A DNA stretch of 64,000 bases from Herpetosiphon aurantiacus DSM 785 (lineage in GTDB: Bacteria; Chloroflexota; Chloroflexia; Chloroflexales; Herpetosiphonaceae). The DNA lies in assembly GCA_000018565.1 (NCBI GenBank), contig CP000875.1:3921199-3985198 (forward strand), given 5' to 3'. A model generated the notes under the pieces. That model saw only the letters and a list, made by a program, of their open reading frames with translations. It was not told where the DNA came from and searched no databases. The position numbers and the translations under genes were made by a program. Position 1 is the stretch's first letter, and each line of letters starts with the position of its first letter. Below are positions 8,299 to 22,070 of the stretch, piece by piece.

Positions 8299-10110
8299 TT
8301 AGGCGGTTAATTCATCGAGTTTGGTCACCAAATCGCCAAAGCGATTCATGGCTCGATGAATTGGGTCGGGGGTGGTCATATCGACCCCAGCACCCTTGAG
8401 TAGATCGATTGATGATTTGGAATTACCACCTCGCAAGAAGTTGACGTAGTTTTCAGCAGCACCAGCGCCTTCGGTCAAAATCTTATCGGCCAAGGCCAAG
8501 GCAGCTGAAATGCCAGTGGAATATTGATAGACATAGAACGAGCGGTAGAAGTGAGGAATCCGTGCCCATTCAATATCCAATTCTTCATCGATGACCAATT
8601 CGGGGCCATAGTATTGCTCGATCAAGCGGCGATACAAGGCACTGAGGTTATCGGCAGTTAGCGCTTCACCTTGCTCGACCATGCGATGGGTTTCGCGCTC
8701 GAACTCGGCAAACAAGGTTTGACGCAACAACGTGCCGCGAATATCATCAATTTGCTGGGTGACCAATTGCAAGCGCAAGGCTGGGTCATCGCTGGTTTTG
8801 AGCATATATTCGGCCAGCAAAGCTTCGTTTAAAGTTGAAGCGACTTCGGCCACAAACAAGGTGTAATGGCCATAGGTATAGGGTTGATATTTACGGGTCA
8901 TCAACGAGTGCATCGAGTGACCAAGCTCATGGGCCAGGGTAAAGAGACTATTCAAGTTATTTTTGTAGTTCATCAAAATAAAGGGCTGTGAGGTGTAACA
9001 ACCCCATGAATAGGCTCCTGAGCGTTTATTTTTATTTTCGTAGCGGTCAACCCAGCGCGATTCCAGCCCATGACCGAGGTTGGAGCTATATTCAGCGCCA
9101 AGTGGCTCCAAGGCGCTCAAAATCAACGAAGCACCTTGTTCAAAGTCGATTTTGGTTGGGGCTGCGCCGTTTAATGGCACAAACCAATCGTAGGCATGCA
9201 GGCTATCAACCCCCAAAATGCGCTTGCGCACTGCGCCATAACGATGCAATTTGGGCAAGTGCTCGTGCACCGTGCTGATCAAATTATCGTAGACGCTCAT
9301 AGGAATTTCTTTGGGTTTTAGGCTGGCATCTAAGGCTGAATCGTAGCCCCGCGCTTTGGCATAAAAAATATTACTGCGCACATTGGTCGCATAATTGGCC
9401 GCCAACATATTACGAAATTGGCGATAGGTGCGGTGAATGCTCATAAAAGTATCGCGGCGAATGCGTTGGTTGGGGTTTTCCAGCAACACTGCGTAGCGGC
9501 CCATCGTCACTTCGAGCGGCTTGCCCTGTTCATCTTCAATCGGCGGGAATTTGAGGTCAGCATCGCTAAACATGTTGAAGGTGGTTTGAGCGCCACGGCT
9601 AATCTCGCCAGTTTGGGCCAATAATTCTTCAACTTCGCCAGAGCGGGTGTGTTGGCGCAAACGAATTTGCTCTTCTAAGGCGCGGCGATAAAGTTCGAGG
9701 GCGGGCAAACTGCTCACATAGCCCAAAATTTGCTCATCGGAAAGGGCTAAAAGCTCTGGCTCAATCCAAGAGGTAGCGGCGCTTGCCTTAATCGAGAGGG
9801 CGGTGGCCCGTTCTTCGAGGGCTTGGTAATGTTGGTTGGCCGTATCTTCATCGGCTCGTAAACTGGCATAGACATAAATTTGTTCGAGCACCATGCCAAG
9901 GGCTTCTTGGGCTTGAAACACTGCCAACAACGCCTCAGGACCATTGGCGAGCGTGCCTTGCAAATTGGTCAAGGCTGGCAGCAAATCGCTGCTAATTCGT
10001 TCAACATCAGCCTCCCAAGCCGCTTGGTCTGCATAGAGACTACTAATATCCCAAGTGTCTTCGGCGCTTACTTCCTCGCGGGTTGGTACCTGTTCTTCAA
10101 CCATGGTCAT
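8299..10110 (-). CDS. pepF: Oligoendopeptidase F, M3 family
   Basis: Zinc endopeptidase that degrades oligopeptides in the cytoplasm. At 603 residues it has full family length. The zinc motif HELGHSMHS places ligands at H394 and H398 with catalytic E395. The third-ligand region (FVAEVASTLNEALL) follows about 25 residues later. The C-terminal region with YSTGISAALALADKI and the FLRGGNSKSSIDLLKGAGVDM block is typical of PepF. GGAG lies about 9 bases before the ATG at 10110; a second in-frame ATG is two codons in. No signal peptide. Confidence 0.95.
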   Translation of the reverse strand: MTMVEEQVPTREEVSAEDTWDISSLYADQAAWEADVERISSDLLPALTNLQGTLANGPEALLAVFQAQEALGMVLEQIYVYASLRADEDTANQHYQALEERATALSIKASAATSWIEPELLALSDEQILGYVSSLPALELYRRALEEQIRLRQHTRSGEVEELLAQTGEISRGAQTTFNMFSDADLKFPPIEDEQGKPLEVTMGRYAVLLENPNQRIRRDTFMSIHRTYRQFRNMLAANYATNVRSNIFYAKARGYDSALDASLKPKEIPMSVYDNLISTVHEHLPKLHRYGAVRKRILGVDSLHAYDWFVPLNGAAPTKIDFEQGASLILSALEPLGAEYSSNLGHGLESRWVDRYENKNKRSGAYSWGCYTSQPFILMNYKNNLNSLFTLAHELGHSMHSLMTRKYQPYTYGHYTLFVAEVASTLNEALLAEYMLKTSDDPALRLQLVTQQIDDIRGTLLRQTLFAEFERETHRMVEQGEALTADNLSALYRRLIEQYYGPELVIDEELDIEWARIPHFYRSFYVYQYSTGISAALALADKILTEGAGAAENYVNFLRGGNSKSSIDLLKGAGVDMTTPDPIHRAMNRFGDLVTKLDELTA

Positions 10111-10502
10111 GAGGGGTTCTCCAGTTTCATGTCAATGCTTCAGTACTGCACCATTGCAACACTGCTCCAGCAGGCGTAATTATCAATGGATATAGTATGC
10201 TGATTTTAGCATAAACTCGATGATTTGTACTACCCGACTTTTGACTGAACTGCTGTTAATTTGCTACAAATCTGCTACTACGGGCCAGCCGCATCATTAT
10301 AAAGTATAGCAAGATCGTTGAATTACCCAAAAACGCCGATGTACTAGGCGATCCTCGTTGCAGTTGCATCATTCATGGCCCAATTGAAAGCAGCACTAGC
10401 AGCACAATTGGACTATTGAGCCCTTGACAAGGAGGCGTTTTTGCGGTCTGGTATTGATACGCCCTTTTTGATGATGGTGGCGGTTTGGATAGGAGTTCTG
10501 CA
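10111..10502. other. Intergenic region between pepF and the ABC exporter
   Basis: This 392-base divergent region must hold promoters for both neighbours but shows no convincing consensus pair. AT-rich patches around 10188-10215 and 10298-10312 are candidates. A 7-bp inverted repeat CCAATTG/CAATTGG (10380-10386 and 10405-10411) flanks an 18-base segment. No ORF with a ribosome binding site was seen. Confidence 0.5.
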
Positions 10503-11483
10503 ATGATCATTGCTGAAGAGTTACGTAAACAATTTGGAGATTTTCACGCTGTAAAGGGCGTATCGCTTGAAGTAAAGCCGGGCGAAGTCTTGGCGTTGCT
10601 TGGCCCGAATGGCGCAGGCAAAACTACCAGCATCCGGATGTTGGCAGCAATTCTCAAACCGACCAGCGGGCGGGCAGTTGTTGGCGGCTTTAATGTAGAA
10701 ACCCATGCCCGCGAAGTGCGCCATGCTGTCGGCTTGCTCACCGAATTTCCAGGCCTCTACCATCGCATGAAATCGCTTGATTATTTATTATTTTTTGGGC
10801 GTTTGCAAGGCATGAATGATCGTGATTGTGGTAATCGGGCAGTGCAACTCCTCCAACAATTTGGCCTCTGGGAAGCCCGCGAAAAACGCATCGACGGCTA
10901 TTCCAAAGGCATGAAACAAAAACTAGCCTTGATTCGGGCAATGATCCACGATCCCAATATTTTGTATCTCGATGAGCCAACCACGGCCATGGACCCGCAC
11001 TCGGCCCGCACGGTGCGCGATGCAATTGCAGGCCTGCGCTCAGCCCAGCGCTCGATCATTTTGTGTACCCATAATTTGAACGAAGCCGAGGAGCTGGCCG
11101 ACCGCATTGCGGTTGTCCACGATGGTGGAATTGCTGTGCAGGGCACAATTGCTGAGCTAAGCCAACAATTGATGGGCGACCCAATTTGGGAGTTACGTCT
11201 AGCCCAACCACAACCAGAGCTAGCTCAACGCCTGGCCGATTTGCTAACCATTGAGGAAGTTGGTGATAGTTGGCTCCGTTATCGCACAACCGAGCCACAG
11301 ACGCTTAATCCGGTGCTGATTCAACGAATAAGTGGTTGGGGCTGGCCATTGTTGGCAATCAACGAAGTGCAGCGCTCGTTAGAAGATGTCTATCTGACGA
11401 TTGTTGGCCAAACTCACCGCGAACGGATGAGCAGCCCACTTGAGCAGCCCAATGCGGCGGCAGTTGCCGAGGTCGCCTTATGA
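10503..11483 (+). CDS. ABC transporter ATP-binding protein
   Basis: Energy-coupling subunit of an ABC-2 type exporter. From the ATG at 10503 (TAGGAG 8 bases upstream) it has 326 residues. Walker A is LGPNGAGKTTSIRML, the signature YSKGMKQKLALIRAM and Walker B ILYLDEPTTAMD; the H-loop is LCTHNLNEAE. The C-terminal 90 residues form the extension common in DrrA/CcmA-like subunits. A TTG at 10485 is in frame but lies upstream of the ribosome binding site. It overlaps the permease gene by 4 bases (ATGA), so the two are translationally coupled. The substrate cannot be told from sequence. Confidence 0.92.
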   Translation: MIIAEELRKQFGDFHAVKGVSLEVKPGEVLALLGPNGAGKTTSIRMLAAILKPTSGRAVVGGFNVETHAREVRHAVGLLTEFPGLYHRMKSLDYLLFFGRLQGMNDRDCGNRAVQLLQQFGLWEAREKRIDGYSKGMKQKLALIRAMIHDPNILYLDEPTTAMDPHSARTVRDAIAGLRSAQRSIILCTHNLNEAEELADRIAVVHDGGIAVQGTIAELSQQLMGDPIWELRLAQPQPELAQRLADLLTIEEVGDSWLRYRTTEPQTLNPVLIQRISGWGWPLLAINEVQRSLEDVYLTIVGQTHRERMSSPLEQPNAAAVAEVAL

Positions 11484-13762
11484 GGAACCAAGCCTTAACC
11501 ATTACACGCCGCGACTTACGCGATACGCTCAGCGATTGGCGCACATTGATTCCGTTATGCATTCTTTCGGTGTTGTTGCCGCTAATTCTGCGGGCGGGGG
11601 TAGCGCAAGCAGTGAGTTTTCTCGACGATGAATTTATCAACCGCAGTTTAGTGCCATTAGGTCTGTTGATTGCGGGATTCTTGCCAGCCTCACTCTCCTT
11701 GATTGGCCCCTTGGAATCGTTTGTCGGCGAACGTGAACGCTCAACCCTGGAATCGTTGTTGGCCATGCCAATGAGCGATCGTGGACTCTATCTAGCCAAG
11801 TTTTTGGCGGCACTATTGCCACCAATTGGCTCCTCGGCAGTGGCGATGCTGATGTATAGCCTAGCGATTGAGCTTGGGCGACCAGTACGCGTAGCCTTTG
11901 TGCAAAAGCTGCTCAGCGACTATTTAACCAGCGGCTGGATTATTGGCATCACATGTATTTTGTTGATTAAAGTTTTTACCATGGTTGCGGCAGCTGTCTA
12001 TGTTTCGTCACATACTACCAGCATTCGGGCAGCCAACTTATTAGCCAGTTTCATCCTAATTCCAATGGCAATTTTGGTCCAGATCGAAGCACTGATCATC
12101 ATCAACGGCATGTTTTTGCCAATTGTGTTGATTAATGGTTTGTTGCTCGTGGTTGGTCTGACCATGGTTGGTTGGGGCATGTATAGCTTTAATCGCGAAG
12201 AATTGCTCTCACGTGAGCATGAAAGCATCAGCAAACGAGCCTCAACCCAACGCCTGAGCCAATCGACCCGCACCTATGGCCCTGTGATGACCATTGTACA
12301 GCGCGAGGCTGTTGACACGCTCAGCGACTGGCGAATTTTGGTGCCAATTGGCCTCTTGACCTTTTTAGTGCCAATTGGCGCTTTGTTTGGGGTCATTTAT
12401 GCTTTTGCTAATGTCGATGACCCGACTGGGGTGGTTAATCTATTGCCCTTTATCGTGTTGCTGGTGGGCTTCTTACCAGCCTCATTTTCGCTGATTGTGG
12501 CACTTGAAGTTTTTGTTGGTGAGCGCGAACGTGGGTCGCTGGAGTCATTATTCTCAATGCCGATCAGCGATGGTCAGTTGTATCGAGGAAAGTTATTGGC
12601 GGCGATCGTGCCACCAATTGGCGCAAGCTTGGTTGGCATGCTGTTGTTTGGGGTTGGACTGAGCGTCTTTGCCCCAACTGCCTTGCTGGGACGGATCAAC
12701 TTAAGCATTTTTAGCCAAATGGTCTTGCTGAGTATTGCCCAAGCCTTGACGATGGTTTCAGCAGCGGTGGTGATTTCGTCGCATACCAACACCGTGCGCT
12801 TAGCCAATTTATTGGCAAGCTTTATTTTGATCCCAGTGGCGATTATGGTACAGCTTGAAGCGGTGCTGATTATCGGCGAACGCTTCGACGTGCTGAATGC
12901 GATAATGGCAGTAATGTTAATTTTGACAATCGTCTTGACGCGTACCGGCATTGGTAGCTTTAAGCGTGAATCAATTCTATCGCGTGAGCATTTAGCCCTC
13001 AATTTTAGTCAAATCAATCGAGCCTTCAAAGCCTTTTTCAGCGAAATTCGCCCAGCAGGCAGCAACCCCGATAGCCATCTCGGCTTATTCAATGTTGAAA
13101 CTACTAATGGCCCACAACGCAATCTAGGACTGTGGCTCAAACGCTTCTATCGCCAAGAATTAGCTGTCGTTTGGCGCGAGACCCGACTAGCGCTGGTTGT
13201 GGTGCTCCTCTTTTGTGGCGCAGCAATCCTTTTTGGTAGCCAATTTAATCCAGTCAGTAGCCGCGAACAATCATTGGCCAATGTTATGACGCGCTTAGAC
13301 GTAGGTCAGGGCACACTCTGGGAGCCGCCATTAAGCTTTATTGTCATTAGCAATAGCTTTGCAATCTTTTTTGCTGGGCTATTTTCAAGCATCACTTTAG
13401 GCTTTTTTGGCTTGATTCTGCCAGCCATTAACCTAATGGGATTGAGTTTTCGAACCAGTAGTTTAGCCGCAAGCGGCGGCCTAGCAACTGCTCTCAATTA
13501 TCTAGTGGGCTATGAATTGCCGCATGGGTTATTGGAAATTCCGCTAAGTATATTTGCGGCAGCCTTGGCATTACGTATGGGTGCGGCTTTGGCGTTTGTG
13601 CCACCAACCTATAGCGCTGGGCGGCATTTGCTCTGGGCTTGGGCCATGTATCTCAAAGTATTTTGCTTGCTAATTGTGCCTGGACTCGTGCTGGCGGGCT
13701 TGATTGAAGTGTTGGTAACCCCAGCTGTGCATCAGATGGTCTATGGGTTTCTGTGGATTTAG
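11480..13762 (+). CDS. Triple-fusion membrane protein: two ABC-2-like permease modules plus SpoIIM-like domain
   Basis: 760 residues, almost all membrane segments. Residues 1 to about 255 and about 270 to 520 are clear internal repeats: ITRRDLRDTLSDWRTLIP/IVQREAVDTLSDWRILVP, AGFLPASLSLI/VGFLPASFSLI, VGERERSTLESLLAMPMSD/VGERERGSLESLFSMPISD. Each resembles an ABC-2 permease half, so one chain could supply both halves of the channel. The last 200 residues (about 558-760) look like a SpoIIM/DUF95 membrane domain, with YELPHGLLEIPLSIFAAALALRMGAA as the typical signature. The upstream ATPase overlaps by 4 bases. The substrate is unknown, and the SpoIIM assignment is from motif recognition. Confidence 0.8.
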   Translation: MRNQALTITRRDLRDTLSDWRTLIPLCILSVLLPLILRAGVAQAVSFLDDEFINRSLVPLGLLIAGFLPASLSLIGPLESFVGERERSTLESLLAMPMSDRGLYLAKFLAALLPPIGSSAVAMLMYSLAIELGRPVRVAFVQKLLSDYLTSGWIIGITCILLIKVFTMVAAAVYVSSHTTSIRAANLLASFILIPMAILVQIEALIIINGMFLPIVLINGLLLVVGLTMVGWGMYSFNREELLSREHESISKRASTQRLSQSTRTYGPVMTIVQREAVDTLSDWRILVPIGLLTFLVPIGALFGVIYAFANVDDPTGVVNLLPFIVLLVGFLPASFSLIVALEVFVGERERGSLESLFSMPISDGQLYRGKLLAAIVPPIGASLVGMLLFGVGLSVFAPTALLGRINLSIFSQMVLLSIAQALTMVSAAVVISSHTNTVRLANLLASFILIPVAIMVQLEAVLIIGERFDVLNAIMAVMLILTIVLTRTGIGSFKRESILSREHLALNFSQINRAFKAFFSEIRPAGSNPDSHLGLFNVETTNGPQRNLGLWLKRFYRQELAVVWRETRLALVVVLLFCGAAILFGSQFNPVSSREQSLANVMTRLDVGQGTLWEPPLSFIVISNSFAIFFAGLFSSITLGFFGLILPAINLMGLSFRTSSLAASGGLATALNYLVGYELPHGLLEIPLSIFAAALALRMGAALAFVPPTYSAGRHLLWAWAMYLKVFCLLIVPGLVLAGLIEVLVTPAVHQMVYGFLWI

Positions 13763-13832
13763 CCTGTTGACAAGCCATGAAGCTGCTACGTACAATGGAG
13801 CCATCACTTGGTACTGCTAGGAGGGTACTTCG

Positions 13833-15914
13833 ATGGTGGCTCCTTCTGCGCTTGCGTTAATTTTACCGGCGGGTATGCCATTGGCAACCGCGTTAATGAT
13901 CGTCAATCAACGCCAAATCGATTGGGTGGTGATCACGCCTACGCCCAACCCCAAAGAGGGCGATGCAGCGACGCTGATTGCTGTAGCTGAGCTGAAACAA
14001 AGCAATGTTTCGGTCGTTGGGGCATTGGCTGGCCTAACCGTTACGATCACACGAATCTTTCCGGATCGCACGGTGCATTGGCAAAGCGAAGCGATCACAA
14101 CCAAACAAAATGATGATCGGCGTGGCGATAACGAAGGCATTGAGCCAGAGCCAACTACGCCACGGGTGGTTAATGCAGCGCTGTATTATGCCGATGATCC
14201 CCCCGACCTTGTGCCACCAACCACAACCTTGGCAGTAGCAAGCCGTTACCATTTGCGGATTAATATCGGTGAACGGCGGAGCGATTCGCGCTTAACTGAT
14301 GCCCAAGCCTTGCCAACCCCCGAAATAAGCGAAGATTTACCCTTATTTATCAGCGTTTCAAGTCGTGGCGAATATATGGTGTTTGATGCGCCGATGCAGC
14401 GCCTGAGTTTGCCGCCTGTTGGCGATAGTGCCAGCTTGCAATTTAGCCTAACTGCCAAACAGGCAATTGATGATATTCCAATTTGGATCAATGTTTATTA
14501 CAACTGGACCTTGCTGCAAACGCTTGAATTGCATTTCAAAATTACGCCCGTCGAAGGCGATTTGGCTGCGCCCTTGTTAGCGCGGGTCAGCTATTCGCGC
14601 ACCGCTGGCTTTGCTGATTTAGTGGCAATTCGCCCCAAAAAAATTACTTGTAAATTAACTGGCGATGGCGAATTTTATCGTATGAGCGTGGCGTGGCCCG
14701 ATGAAGGTACGAGCACCCGTCGCGAACAACGTGGCTTGAATTTGGTGCTGCCAATCAATGCCGCCAGCTTGAGCAACGAAATTGTCCAAGCGCGAAACAC
14801 GCTCTACGATATTACCTGGCAACCATCGTATCGCCAAGGCAGCCGTGGCAAGTTGGCCGAGCGCCGCGAAAGTTTGTATCAACTAGCGGTTGTGGGTAAT
14901 CGCTTGTATGCTGCTTTGTTTGCGCCCAGTGGAGCCAGCGCCGAGCAAGCTGAATCGTTGGCGGCACTGCGAACATGGCTTGAAACAATTAGCGCCGATC
15001 AGACCTTGCCAGCCTTGCAAATTATCCACGAAGGCATGCCCAGCGGTGTGCCATGGGGCTTGCTTTACCCTGAGCCAGTCAACGATCCCAACAACGTTGA
15101 TCTGAACAAATTCTGGGGTTGTCGTTATCGTTTGGAAATTATGACCCCGCAACTGGCCCAAAATGCGCAGCAAGCGCCAACTGCCCAAGCCCAATTGCAG
15201 ATTAGCGGCGGAACCTACAACTTCCGCGTGCCAATCGCCGATACAGTCGTTGATGTGACTCAACAACATCGTGAAGCGCTGCAAACGTGGAGCACAACCC
15301 GGGGCAATGTGGCGCTCGATTTACGCGAATCAGGCGATAAAAATAGCCTTGGCGGCTTATTCGGTAAAAGCGATATTGTCTATATGTATTGCCATGGCCA
15401 CACCGCCAAAACTCCCGACGATACCTCAGATTGGCTAGCCAAGTTTCGTGATCAAATGGCGCGTTTGGATGATAACGTGCGCAGCAACTATAGCGATTTG
15501 CTCAGTTTGAGCCAGAAAGAATATCAACCAAGCGACCCAAATATTAGCGATAGCTGGCTGAAATGGAATCAAAGCCTGTTGCCGTTGCGCTTGCTGAGCC
15601 AGTGGGGATTAAAACTCGAACGCAAACCGTTGGTCATTTTGAATATGTGTGAATCGGCCCAAGTGCTGCCAACCTTGAGTAGCGGCTTTATTCCATTTTT
15701 CAGCCAATTGGGGGCGCGAGGCATTTTAGGCACCGAATGCCCAATGCTCGCACCATTTGCCGCCGCCTTTGGCCAAAAACTGATCGAACGCTTGGGACAG
15801 GGCGAGGCGATTGGCGATATTTTGCCAGCGCTACGCCGCCATTTTATCGAAGAAGAGCGCAATCCCTTGGGCTTGGCCTACACTTACTATGGCGATGCCG
15901 ATGCCCATGTTTAG
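13833..15914 (+). CDS. CHAT-domain (caspase-like) protein
   Basis: 693 residues. The N-terminus (about 1-90) has a compact domain starting SALALILPAG. The middle part is beta-rich and unassigned (about 120-400). The C-terminal third is a CHAT peptidase-like domain with the conserved His in YCHGHTAK (H521) and the nucleophile Cys in LNMCESAQ (C606), followed by GARGILGTECPMLAPFAAAFG and the LGLAYTYYGDADAHV end. CHAT proteins are predicted or proven cysteine proteases, several acting in bacterial self versus non-self responses. AGGAGG precedes the ATG. A short gene follows 73 bases later and may encode a partner or substrate. No transmembrane segment was seen. Confidence 0.82.
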   Translation: MVAPSALALILPAGMPLATALMIVNQRQIDWVVITPTPNPKEGDAATLIAVAELKQSNVSVVGALAGLTVTITRIFPDRTVHWQSEAITTKQNDDRRGDNEGIEPEPTTPRVVNAALYYADDPPDLVPPTTTLAVASRYHLRINIGERRSDSRLTDAQALPTPEISEDLPLFISVSSRGEYMVFDAPMQRLSLPPVGDSASLQFSLTAKQAIDDIPIWINVYYNWTLLQTLELHFKITPVEGDLAAPLLARVSYSRTAGFADLVAIRPKKITCKLTGDGEFYRMSVAWPDEGTSTRREQRGLNLVLPINAASLSNEIVQARNTLYDITWQPSYRQGSRGKLAERRESLYQLAVVGNRLYAALFAPSGASAEQAESLAALRTWLETISADQTLPALQIIHEGMPSGVPWGLLYPEPVNDPNNVDLNKFWGCRYRLEIMTPQLAQNAQQAPTAQAQLQISGGTYNFRVPIADTVVDVTQQHREALQTWSTTRGNVALDLRESGDKNSLGGLFGKSDIVYMYCHGHTAKTPDDTSDWLAKFRDQMARLDDNVRSNYSDLLSLSQKEYQPSDPNISDSWLKWNQSLLPLRLLSQWGLKLERKPLVILNMCESAQVLPTLSSGFIPFFSQLGARGILGTECPMLAPFAAAFGQKLIERLGQGEAIGDILPALRRHFIEEERNPLGLAYTYYGDADAHV

Positions 15915-15987: not shown

Positions 15988-16551
15988 GTGAGCGATTCAA
16001 CCAATCAACAAGCCGTGTTGGAAAGCCAAGTTCGGTCTTTGGTGGAGCTTTCGGAAGATGATTTGTTTCGCAAACTTGGGATTCAGGTCAAACAAGCTGA
16101 AGAAGCCGATGCTGCCGCGCTCGAAGTAGCCCAAGCTGAAGGCGCATTTGCCGAGCCAGTTGGGGTTGAAATGGGCTTGGGCGAAAATCTGCGGGCTTTT
16201 GGGGCACGCTGGTGGGCCGAAATCGAGCCAAAACTTTACAATTTGCTGTGTGCCAGCGAAAGCAAAGAGCGCAGCCAAATTTTGGCTCAATTGCCCGAAT
16301 CGAAGGGCGGCACAGCAGCGGCAGTGGTTGGTGGCGATAGTGGTAATGCTGCGGCTGATAATATTGCCACAGCCCTAGCACCATTATTGATTGGCCTGTT
16401 GCCCTTCAATTTGCCAATTATTGCCTCAGTTGGCGCAACAATTGCCGCCAAAATGATTTTGAGTTCAGGCCTCAAAACGACCTGCGAAATGTGGCAAGAA
16501 TCAATTGAGGCTCGTGAAGAAGCCAAGGCTAAAGAAAACCCCGCTGAATAA
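15988..16551 (+). CDS. Unknown protein with hydrophobic C-terminal hairpin, partner of the CHAT gene
   Basis: 187 residues starting at GTG (AAGGAG 5 bases upstream). The N-terminal 100 residues are acidic and helical (VRSLVELSEDDLFRKLGIQV). Residues about 125-160 form two short hydrophobic, Gly/Ala-rich segments (LAPLLIGLLPFNLPIIASVGATIAAKM, quoted here only as a region, broken by Pro/Asn), followed by a charged tail. This suggests a protein able to insert into or associate with membrane. I do not recognise the family. Its position right after the CHAT gene suggests a substrate, inhibitor or effector role; that is inference. Confidence 0.7.
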   Translation: MSDSTNQQAVLESQVRSLVELSEDDLFRKLGIQVKQAEEADAAALEVAQAEGAFAEPVGVEMGLGENLRAFGARWWAEIEPKLYNLLCASESKERSQILAQLPESKGGTAAAVVGGDSGNAAADNIATALAPLLIGLLPFNLPIIASVGATIAAKMILSSGLKTTCEMWQESIEAREEAKAKENPAE

Positions 16552-16555
16552 TTGG

Positions 16556-16670
16556 TTCCCTCACCCCCTAGCCCCCTCTCCCGCCCCGCAGGCGAGGGGC
16601 AACCACCAAACCAAACGCCCTTCTCCCACCGCAGTGGGAGAGGGGTTGGGGGTGAGGGATCTTAAAATCT
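16556..16670. repeat. Dispersed repeat family C, inverted pair
   Basis: TTCCCTCACCCCCTAGCCC at the left is mirrored by GGTTGGGGGTGAGGGA near 16645-16662, with inner arms CTCTCCCGCCCCGC and CACCGCAGTGGGAGAGGGG. The element is GC-rich unlike its surroundings and can form a long hairpin. Related copies lie at 22012-22070, 45015-45065 and 59702-59809. Confidence 0.75.
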
Positions 16671-22011: not shown

Positions 22012-22070
22012 ATGCCCTCACCCTCAGCCCCTCTCCCACGGCGGCGGGCGAGGGGAGCACTCCTGGGGCG
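22012..22070. repeat. Dispersed repeat family C, partial copy
   Basis: CCCTCACCCTCAGCCCCTCTCCC followed by GGCGGCGGGCGAGGGG, a shorter version of the element at 16556-16670 (only the segment names are given; the full element is longer). Confidence 0.65.

Follow-up and report, generated by a model that had tools for sequence, protein, structure and literature searches.

The window analysed here, a stretch of 64,000 nucleotides of Herpetosiphon aurantiacus DSM 785 (contig CP000875.1, positions 3,921,199 to 3,985,198; the host genome counts 6,785,430 bases in 3 contigs, the largest of 6,346,587), carries on its plus strand a permease gene (11480..13762, 760 aa from an ATG start) whose product is made up of two ABC-2 modules followed by a SpoIIM domain. 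On balance, we lean slightly to the reading that this protein is the membrane half of an ATP-binding cassette (ABC) exporter of the ABC-2 class (type V fold), holding both halves in one chain together with a C-terminal SpoIIM partner. The fusion is real, well conserved and not an artefact; its component families are known, and single chains with two halves have precedent. We found no description of an ABC-2+SpoIIM fusion in the literature on SpoIIM, DUF95 and pfam01944, on ABC transporters and on Chloroflexi, available in part and mostly from non-subscription journals.

The open reading frame (ORF) lies exactly where the original prediction had placed it, and the gene duplication that was proposed there, giving a one-chain pseudo-dimer, is supported by the repeat alignment, by a hidden Markov model (HMM) of the module and by the structural alignment of a predicted model. 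Indeed, permease residues 6-251 are 44% identical to residues 270-508 in an alignment of 246 columns (194 bits), and the Smith-Waterman score of this repeat reaches 494, for a mean of 46.6, a standard deviation of 7.5 and a maximum of 75 among 500 shuffles. The HMM, built in this analysis, finds exactly two copies in the permease, i.e., module 1 at residues 2-266 (11483..12277, +), which shows six long helices in the model, and module 2 at residues 266-523 (12275..13048, +), also recognized by Pfam. Two Pfam families each match two stretches of the protein, ABC2_membrane_2 with 55.2 bits (cut-off 27.2) and ABC2_membrane_4 with 37.1 bits (cut-off 27). The former matches all 22 rows of our alignment A1 (E<=0.001), and the A1 profile matches NosY with an E-value of 1.3e-5. 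Each module carries a VGERER motif, at residues 82-87 in module 1 (11723..11740, +) and 346-351 in module 2 (12515..12532, +), which we take to be the site that meets the ATPase and to serve as the coupling site. Among 24 two-module rows (26 proteins minus 2 near copies), GERER is present in all 24 first modules and in 23 second modules, the last one reading GEKER. Because GE[RK]ER is kept in both modules in 24/24 rows, neither of them looks, from its sequence, like a dead remnant.

The predicted structure of the whole permease chain has a predicted local distance difference test score (pLDDT) of 79.3 and a predicted template modelling score (pTM) of 0.74. In this model, residues 1-500 align on single chains carrying two complete halves (Z 16-20), and the closest two-half match is 8k1o_A, a mycobacterial efflux pump (Z 19.8, 444 residues, 4.3 Å); Pdr5 (7p06) follows with Z 18.9 over 465 residues at 5.6 Å, and ABCA1 (7tbw_A) with Z 16.1 over 433 residues at 4.4 Å. 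One module taken alone aligns on NosY (7o0z_E) with Z 20.0 over 220 residues at 3.0 Å. Using Foldseek, the whole-chain model gave no match at E<=0.001, the best one (E 0.027, probability 1.00) being to NosY. As far as a predicted model can tell, the two-half alignment of residues 1-500 backs the one-chain dimer.

The third part of the permease, a SpoIIM domain with its lead-in helix, occupies residues 549-760 (13124..13759, +). Its Pfam score for SpoIIM (PF01944; residues 603-748) is modest, 33.9 bits for a cut-off of 26.9, and such a score could be expected if the call reflected hydrophobic helices that resemble SpoIIM by chance, in a third part that was merely one more membrane domain of an ABC transporter. 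We hold this explanation to be hardly credible, and it is contradicted by several results. A one-module relative (L047) reaches 100.4 bits; SpoIIM matches 22/22 rows of A1 (E<=0.001); and a profile built from 68 fused SpoIIM parts (A3) aligns on that of 14 stand-alone SpoIIM (A6) over 210 columns with a probability of 99.9% (hhalign, E 1.2e-32), whereas the ABC-2 modules, used as a control, give a probability of 0.4-0.5% against either profile. Moreover, fused and stand-alone proteins share the same signature. Asn625 (13352..13354, +) is found in 41/41 rows and is invariant in the 14 stand-alone SpoIIM, and the PHGxxE motif (residues 681-686; 13520..13537, +), with P in 41, H in 40, G in 40 and E in 41 of the 41 rows, is also present in stand-alone SpoIIM. 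Hence, the SpoIIM assignment of the original prediction holds, HMM searches for SpoIIM (DUF95) and for the ABC-2 membrane families both giving matches above cut-off. A homology between SpoIIM and the ABC-2 modules was also considered and rejected, as neither the profile comparison nor the Smith-Waterman scores (37 and 55, inside the range of 200 shuffles each) gave a signal.

The ATPase gene (10485..11483, +; 332 aa if started at TTG 10485, fewer if started at ATG 10503) lies directly upstream and shares with the permease gene a 4-bp ATGA overlap (11480-11483), the permease start being within the ATPase stop. Its product, DrrA/GldA-like, scores 99.8 bits for Pfam ABC_tran, and all the usual motifs can be read intact in its sequence: Walker A GPNGAGKTT, signature YSKGM, Walker B LYLDEPT and the H-loop CTH. 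When 301 Chloroflexota genomes were searched with the permease protein, the family was found in 66 of them, and an ATPase gene is immediately upstream in 47/50 family loci, window excluded. The three exceptions (L059, L060 and L075) all belong to one genus, g5, in which the best ATPase match, 58-60% identical, lies at a distance of about 25 kb or on a separate contig. These loci show a two-module permease without adjoining ATPase, and the genes upstream of two of them (L059 and L060) include, by eye, a small-GTPase-like protein. An immunity or drug-efflux pump of the DrrA/DrrB or Rv1217c kind, acting on hydrophobic self-made or foreign compounds and with SpoIIM as an accessory devoid of its own activity, would agree with an ATPase whose nearest model is TIGR01188 drrA (257 bits) and with a mycobacterial efflux pump as nearest two-half structural match. 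However, the ATPase stays under the drrA cut-off of 312, and a family present in 66/301 genomes within a fixed housekeeping neighbourhood (described below) is unlike a resistance gene; we judge a pump of this kind improbable.

In the exporter that we favor, each module would receive, at its VGERER site, one copy of the ATPase encoded by the overlapping gene, and the two copies would drive a pseudo-symmetric channel. Because both GE[RK]ER sites are kept and the ATPase has all its usual motifs, we infer a 1:2 complex; export is the presumed direction of transport. Since true ABC-2 modules are already present, SpoIIM presumably does something other than channel formation; it may be a built-in partner beside the channel, there to hold, insert or pass on the cargo. 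A hydrophobic peptide, lipid or lipoprotein of the envelope is the probable cargo. This role is modelled, by analogy, on the separate SpoIIM of circular-bacteriocin clusters with their ABC ATPase. According to the available part of PMC6131525, cells that lack the SpoIIM protein LcyD retain the mature circular bacteriocin, and in that of PMC7132975 a SpoIIM-ABC transporter complex is proposed, SpoIIM being viewed as the membrane-spanning part of the ATPase. In a circular-bacteriocin cluster of a Priestia plasmid, SpoIIM also lies near an ABC ATPase.

Several observations weigh against such an exporter. First, no cargo gene was recognized beside the operon of the window, nor any precursor peptide or immunity gene next to it; the ORFs of at least 25 aa in 10110-10500 were listed and no precursor peptide was recognized by eye, no family search of these small ORFs having been run. 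Second, the SpoIIM part, confidently predicted alone (pLDDT 92.6, pTM 0.87), finds no family that stands out among solved folds (best E-value 0.62 with Foldseek, best Z 6.6 with VIA-align), a missing PDB match which is not by itself proof of a new fold. Third, the stand-alone SpoIIM of other Chloroflexota have no adjoining gene with the ABC-2 motif (19 loci, with a motif-bearing SpoIIM ORF in 16), and therefore SpoIIM is not paired with an ABC exporter in every case; at two loci, L210 and L211, about 3 kb separates SpoIIM from an ATPase and from a permease-like ORF, both seen by eye, and further genes lie in this interval. Finally, evolution within the genus has been 2-3 times faster in the SpoIIM part than in the ABC modules. 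The ratios of nonsynonymous to synonymous substitution rates (dN/dS) of six within-genus pairs, rough values as dS is 0.7-1.4 in five of the six, are 0.03-0.08 for module 1, 0.03-0.05 for module 2 and 0.11-0.18 for SpoIIM. In favor of the exporter, these ratios point to purifying selection on each of the three parts. Over the 24 two-module rows, the conservation of the three parts is about equal (0.542, 0.536 and 0.538).

The gene neighbourhoods, which in one-module relatives consist of envelope genes, count in favor of the exporter and bear also on another explanation, an envelope-remodelling machine in which the ABC part would act mechanically and SpoIIM would be a scaffold recruiting or switching peptidoglycan enzymes, as FtsEX does or as in the SpoIID-SpoIIM-SpoIIP (DMP) complex. 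The available part of PMC5898192, an archaeal survey, reports that Bacillus subtilis SpoIIM recruits SpoIIP and SpoIID, and favors membrane remodelling for the SpoIIM family, a view on which this explanation is based. In a scan of named genomes, limited to the best 80 loci and biased to the clade of the one-module protein (from G005) with which the query began, the neighbours are FtsK (72 loci), a CDP-alcohol phosphatidyltransferase (72), Lgt (74), the ATPase (78) and a metallo-beta-lactamase-fold protein (59), identities that were checked on L040. In Anaerolineales-type genomes (L040:3483-9947 and L094-L173), these genes form a block, FtsK - CDP-alcohol transferase - Lgt - ATPase - ABC-2/SpoIIM permease, often then the metallo-beta-lactamase-fold protein. 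One further locus (L036, in G158) adjoins mreB, mreC and a penicillin-binding protein gene, and the host genome encodes SpoIID. For the two-module loci, these envelope neighbours are absent from the shared neighbour families. Against remodelling, SpoIIP has 0 matches in the host genome with a positive B. subtilis control, the single SpoIID match is distant (C1:1110608) and unlinked, no wall-hydrolase gene is among the identified neighbours, and the modules fit ABC-2/NosY in both fold and sequence. We consider remodelling rather unlikely, and the sporulation-type SpoIIDMP complex, a link to peptidoglycan remodelling in sporulation having been raised in the original prediction, was rejected on the lack of SpoIIP and the unlinked SpoIID. 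The second SpoIIM of the host genome is an ordinary stand-alone protein, beside an RDD protein.

The distribution of the family separates the fusion from the duplication. Matches at E<=1e-10 were obtained in 83/301 genomes and scores of at least 112 bits in 66, the next scores not exceeding 69.7 (hand count). Three low-scoring loci were fetched, two with ATPase-ABC-2 fusions and one with a 269-aa ABC-2 protein, none having a match to the SpoIIM part; in family f59 (L048:3357-5042 and L049:3744-5411), the ATPase is fused to a single ABC-2 module, without this match. Within the order of the window, 28/29 sampled genomes, host included, carry the family (G134 has none), 26 in the two-module and 2 in the one-module form (G158 and G142), and all members examined outside the order are one-module. 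Among 54 proteins, the module HMM finds two copies in 26, i.e., all those of at least 740 aa, and one copy in the other 28; the proteins of the best 80 named loci, of 410-577 aa, were judged one-module by their length. The ABC-2+SpoIIM fusion is wider than the duplication, one-module proteins being found across the phylum. Because the one-module form is wide and the two-module form narrow, fusion would most simply have come earlier, followed by duplication either close to the base of the order or on two occasions inside it. In module trees of 80 modules, then of 51/80 after removal of 23 near copies and of 6 rows that were far or ABC-2-only, both with long branches present, the first and second modules of the family of the window are apart from those of f2. 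Approximately unbiased tests do not decide between one and two duplications, since a single origin (p 0.455 and 0.37) is not rejected and a separate event in f1 (p 0.388) is not rejected either.

The titles of the best 80 scan loci name Chloroflexi or groups taken to be Chloroflexota, and among these loci the fusion was not found beyond this phylum. On plasmids, a query made of module 2 and SpoIIM gave partial ABC-2 matches alone (4 records), and the SpoIIM part of a relative gave 9 records. Two haloarchaeal plasmid proteins of about 515 aa were tested and showed a weak DUF7847 match and SpoIIM, with no ABC-2. These haloarchaeal plasmid loci (L225:3768-5306 and L227:3705-5261; 512-518 aa, the DUF7847-like part being below cut-off) represent a second kind of SpoIIM fusion. 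Plasmid pMETHO01 of Methanomethylovorans hollandica (L226:2347-5507) encodes, among ABC genes, a SpoIIM protein of 189 aa, a Yip1 protein and two ORFs of 66 aa each, and looks like an archaeal cluster of the circular-bacteriocin type; its small ORFs matched no Pfam family.

Downstream of the permease lies a gene for a CHAT-domain protein (13833..15914, +; 693 aa; Pfam CHAT 31.9 bits), a genus-specific neighbour that had been predicted to be carried by the operon. This did not hold, and we judge CHAT not to be part of the system. Its own promoter-like site, TTGACA-18-TACAAT (13767..13796, +; 11/12 matches), precedes it and argues for a separate unit. This site, in the 70-base gap, is the best of 10 promoter-like matches, where shuffles expect 7.4; both hexamers are invariant in 6/6 congeners, weak evidence by itself as the whole gap is about 95% identical. 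CHAT adjoins the permease in 5/5 congeners; in the sister genus G070, the two genes are on different contigs (C51 vs C186), and among the 14 CHAT matches of the host genome the operon neighbour is the weakest. Further downstream, a 187-aa protein without Pfam match (15988-16551) follows CHAT, as in 4/5 congener loci, the fifth ending early. A G-rich/C-rich inverted repeat, GGGAGAGGGGTTGGGGGTGAGGG, lies at 16560-16660, with a near copy at 22015-22037 where none is expected by chance.

Beyond the window, we raise as a possibility, and a tentative one, that SpoIIM/DUF95 serves ABC exporters in general as a membrane partner, handling hydrophobic cargo at the channel; the Chloroflexota fusion would be a natural proof of their contact, and its duplication would show that there is one SpoIIM per complete two-half exporter. 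If so, circular-bacteriocin release, and perhaps engulfment too, would be particular instances of this partner handling cargo or the envelope. SpoIIM is widespread, and the functions given in the literature consulted, available in part, are sporulation and circular bacteriocins alone; its contact with an ABC exporter is so far a proposal in the available part of PMC7132975. A conserved ABC-2+SpoIIM fusion with its ATPase across Chloroflexota brings genetic evidence of a physical partnership. In a single stable chain, the position of SpoIIM beside the channel could be solved, and the one-module and two-module forms would allow one to compare two SpoIIM copies per exporter with one.

Among known systems, the ABC-2/type V exporters (NosFY, ABCG, Pdr5, 8k1m-8k1p) likewise have six-helix modules of the NosY fold and a separate ATPase gene, and in 8k1o_A and Pdr5, as in the permease of the window, the two halves are on one chain. 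On the other hand, the window chain adds a C-terminal SpoIIM and bears no ATPase. The 8k1m-8k1p structures are, we presume, those of the Rv1217c/Rv1218c pump. For this pump, the available part of PMC7761784 describes a large transmembrane domain of 12 predicted helices. Compared with the SpoIIM (PF01944, formerly DUF95) of the DMP complex and of the stand-alone RDD-SpoIIM pairs, the domain is the same, full-length and with its N + PHGxxE signature, but it is covalently joined to ABC-2 modules, in a genome with no SpoIIP. In the clusters of circular (head-to-tail cyclised) bacteriocins, SpoIIM is likewise encoded with an ABC ATPase, whereas here it is fused to real ABC-2 modules, with no precursor or immunity gene recognized nearby. 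The best NCBIfam match, NF041647 (ABC transporter permease subunit/CPBP intramembrane protease; 41.3 bits, far from its cut-off of 435), joins, by its name, an ABC permease to another membrane family within a single protein, which is the same plan, with a CPBP protease where the window permease has SpoIIM.

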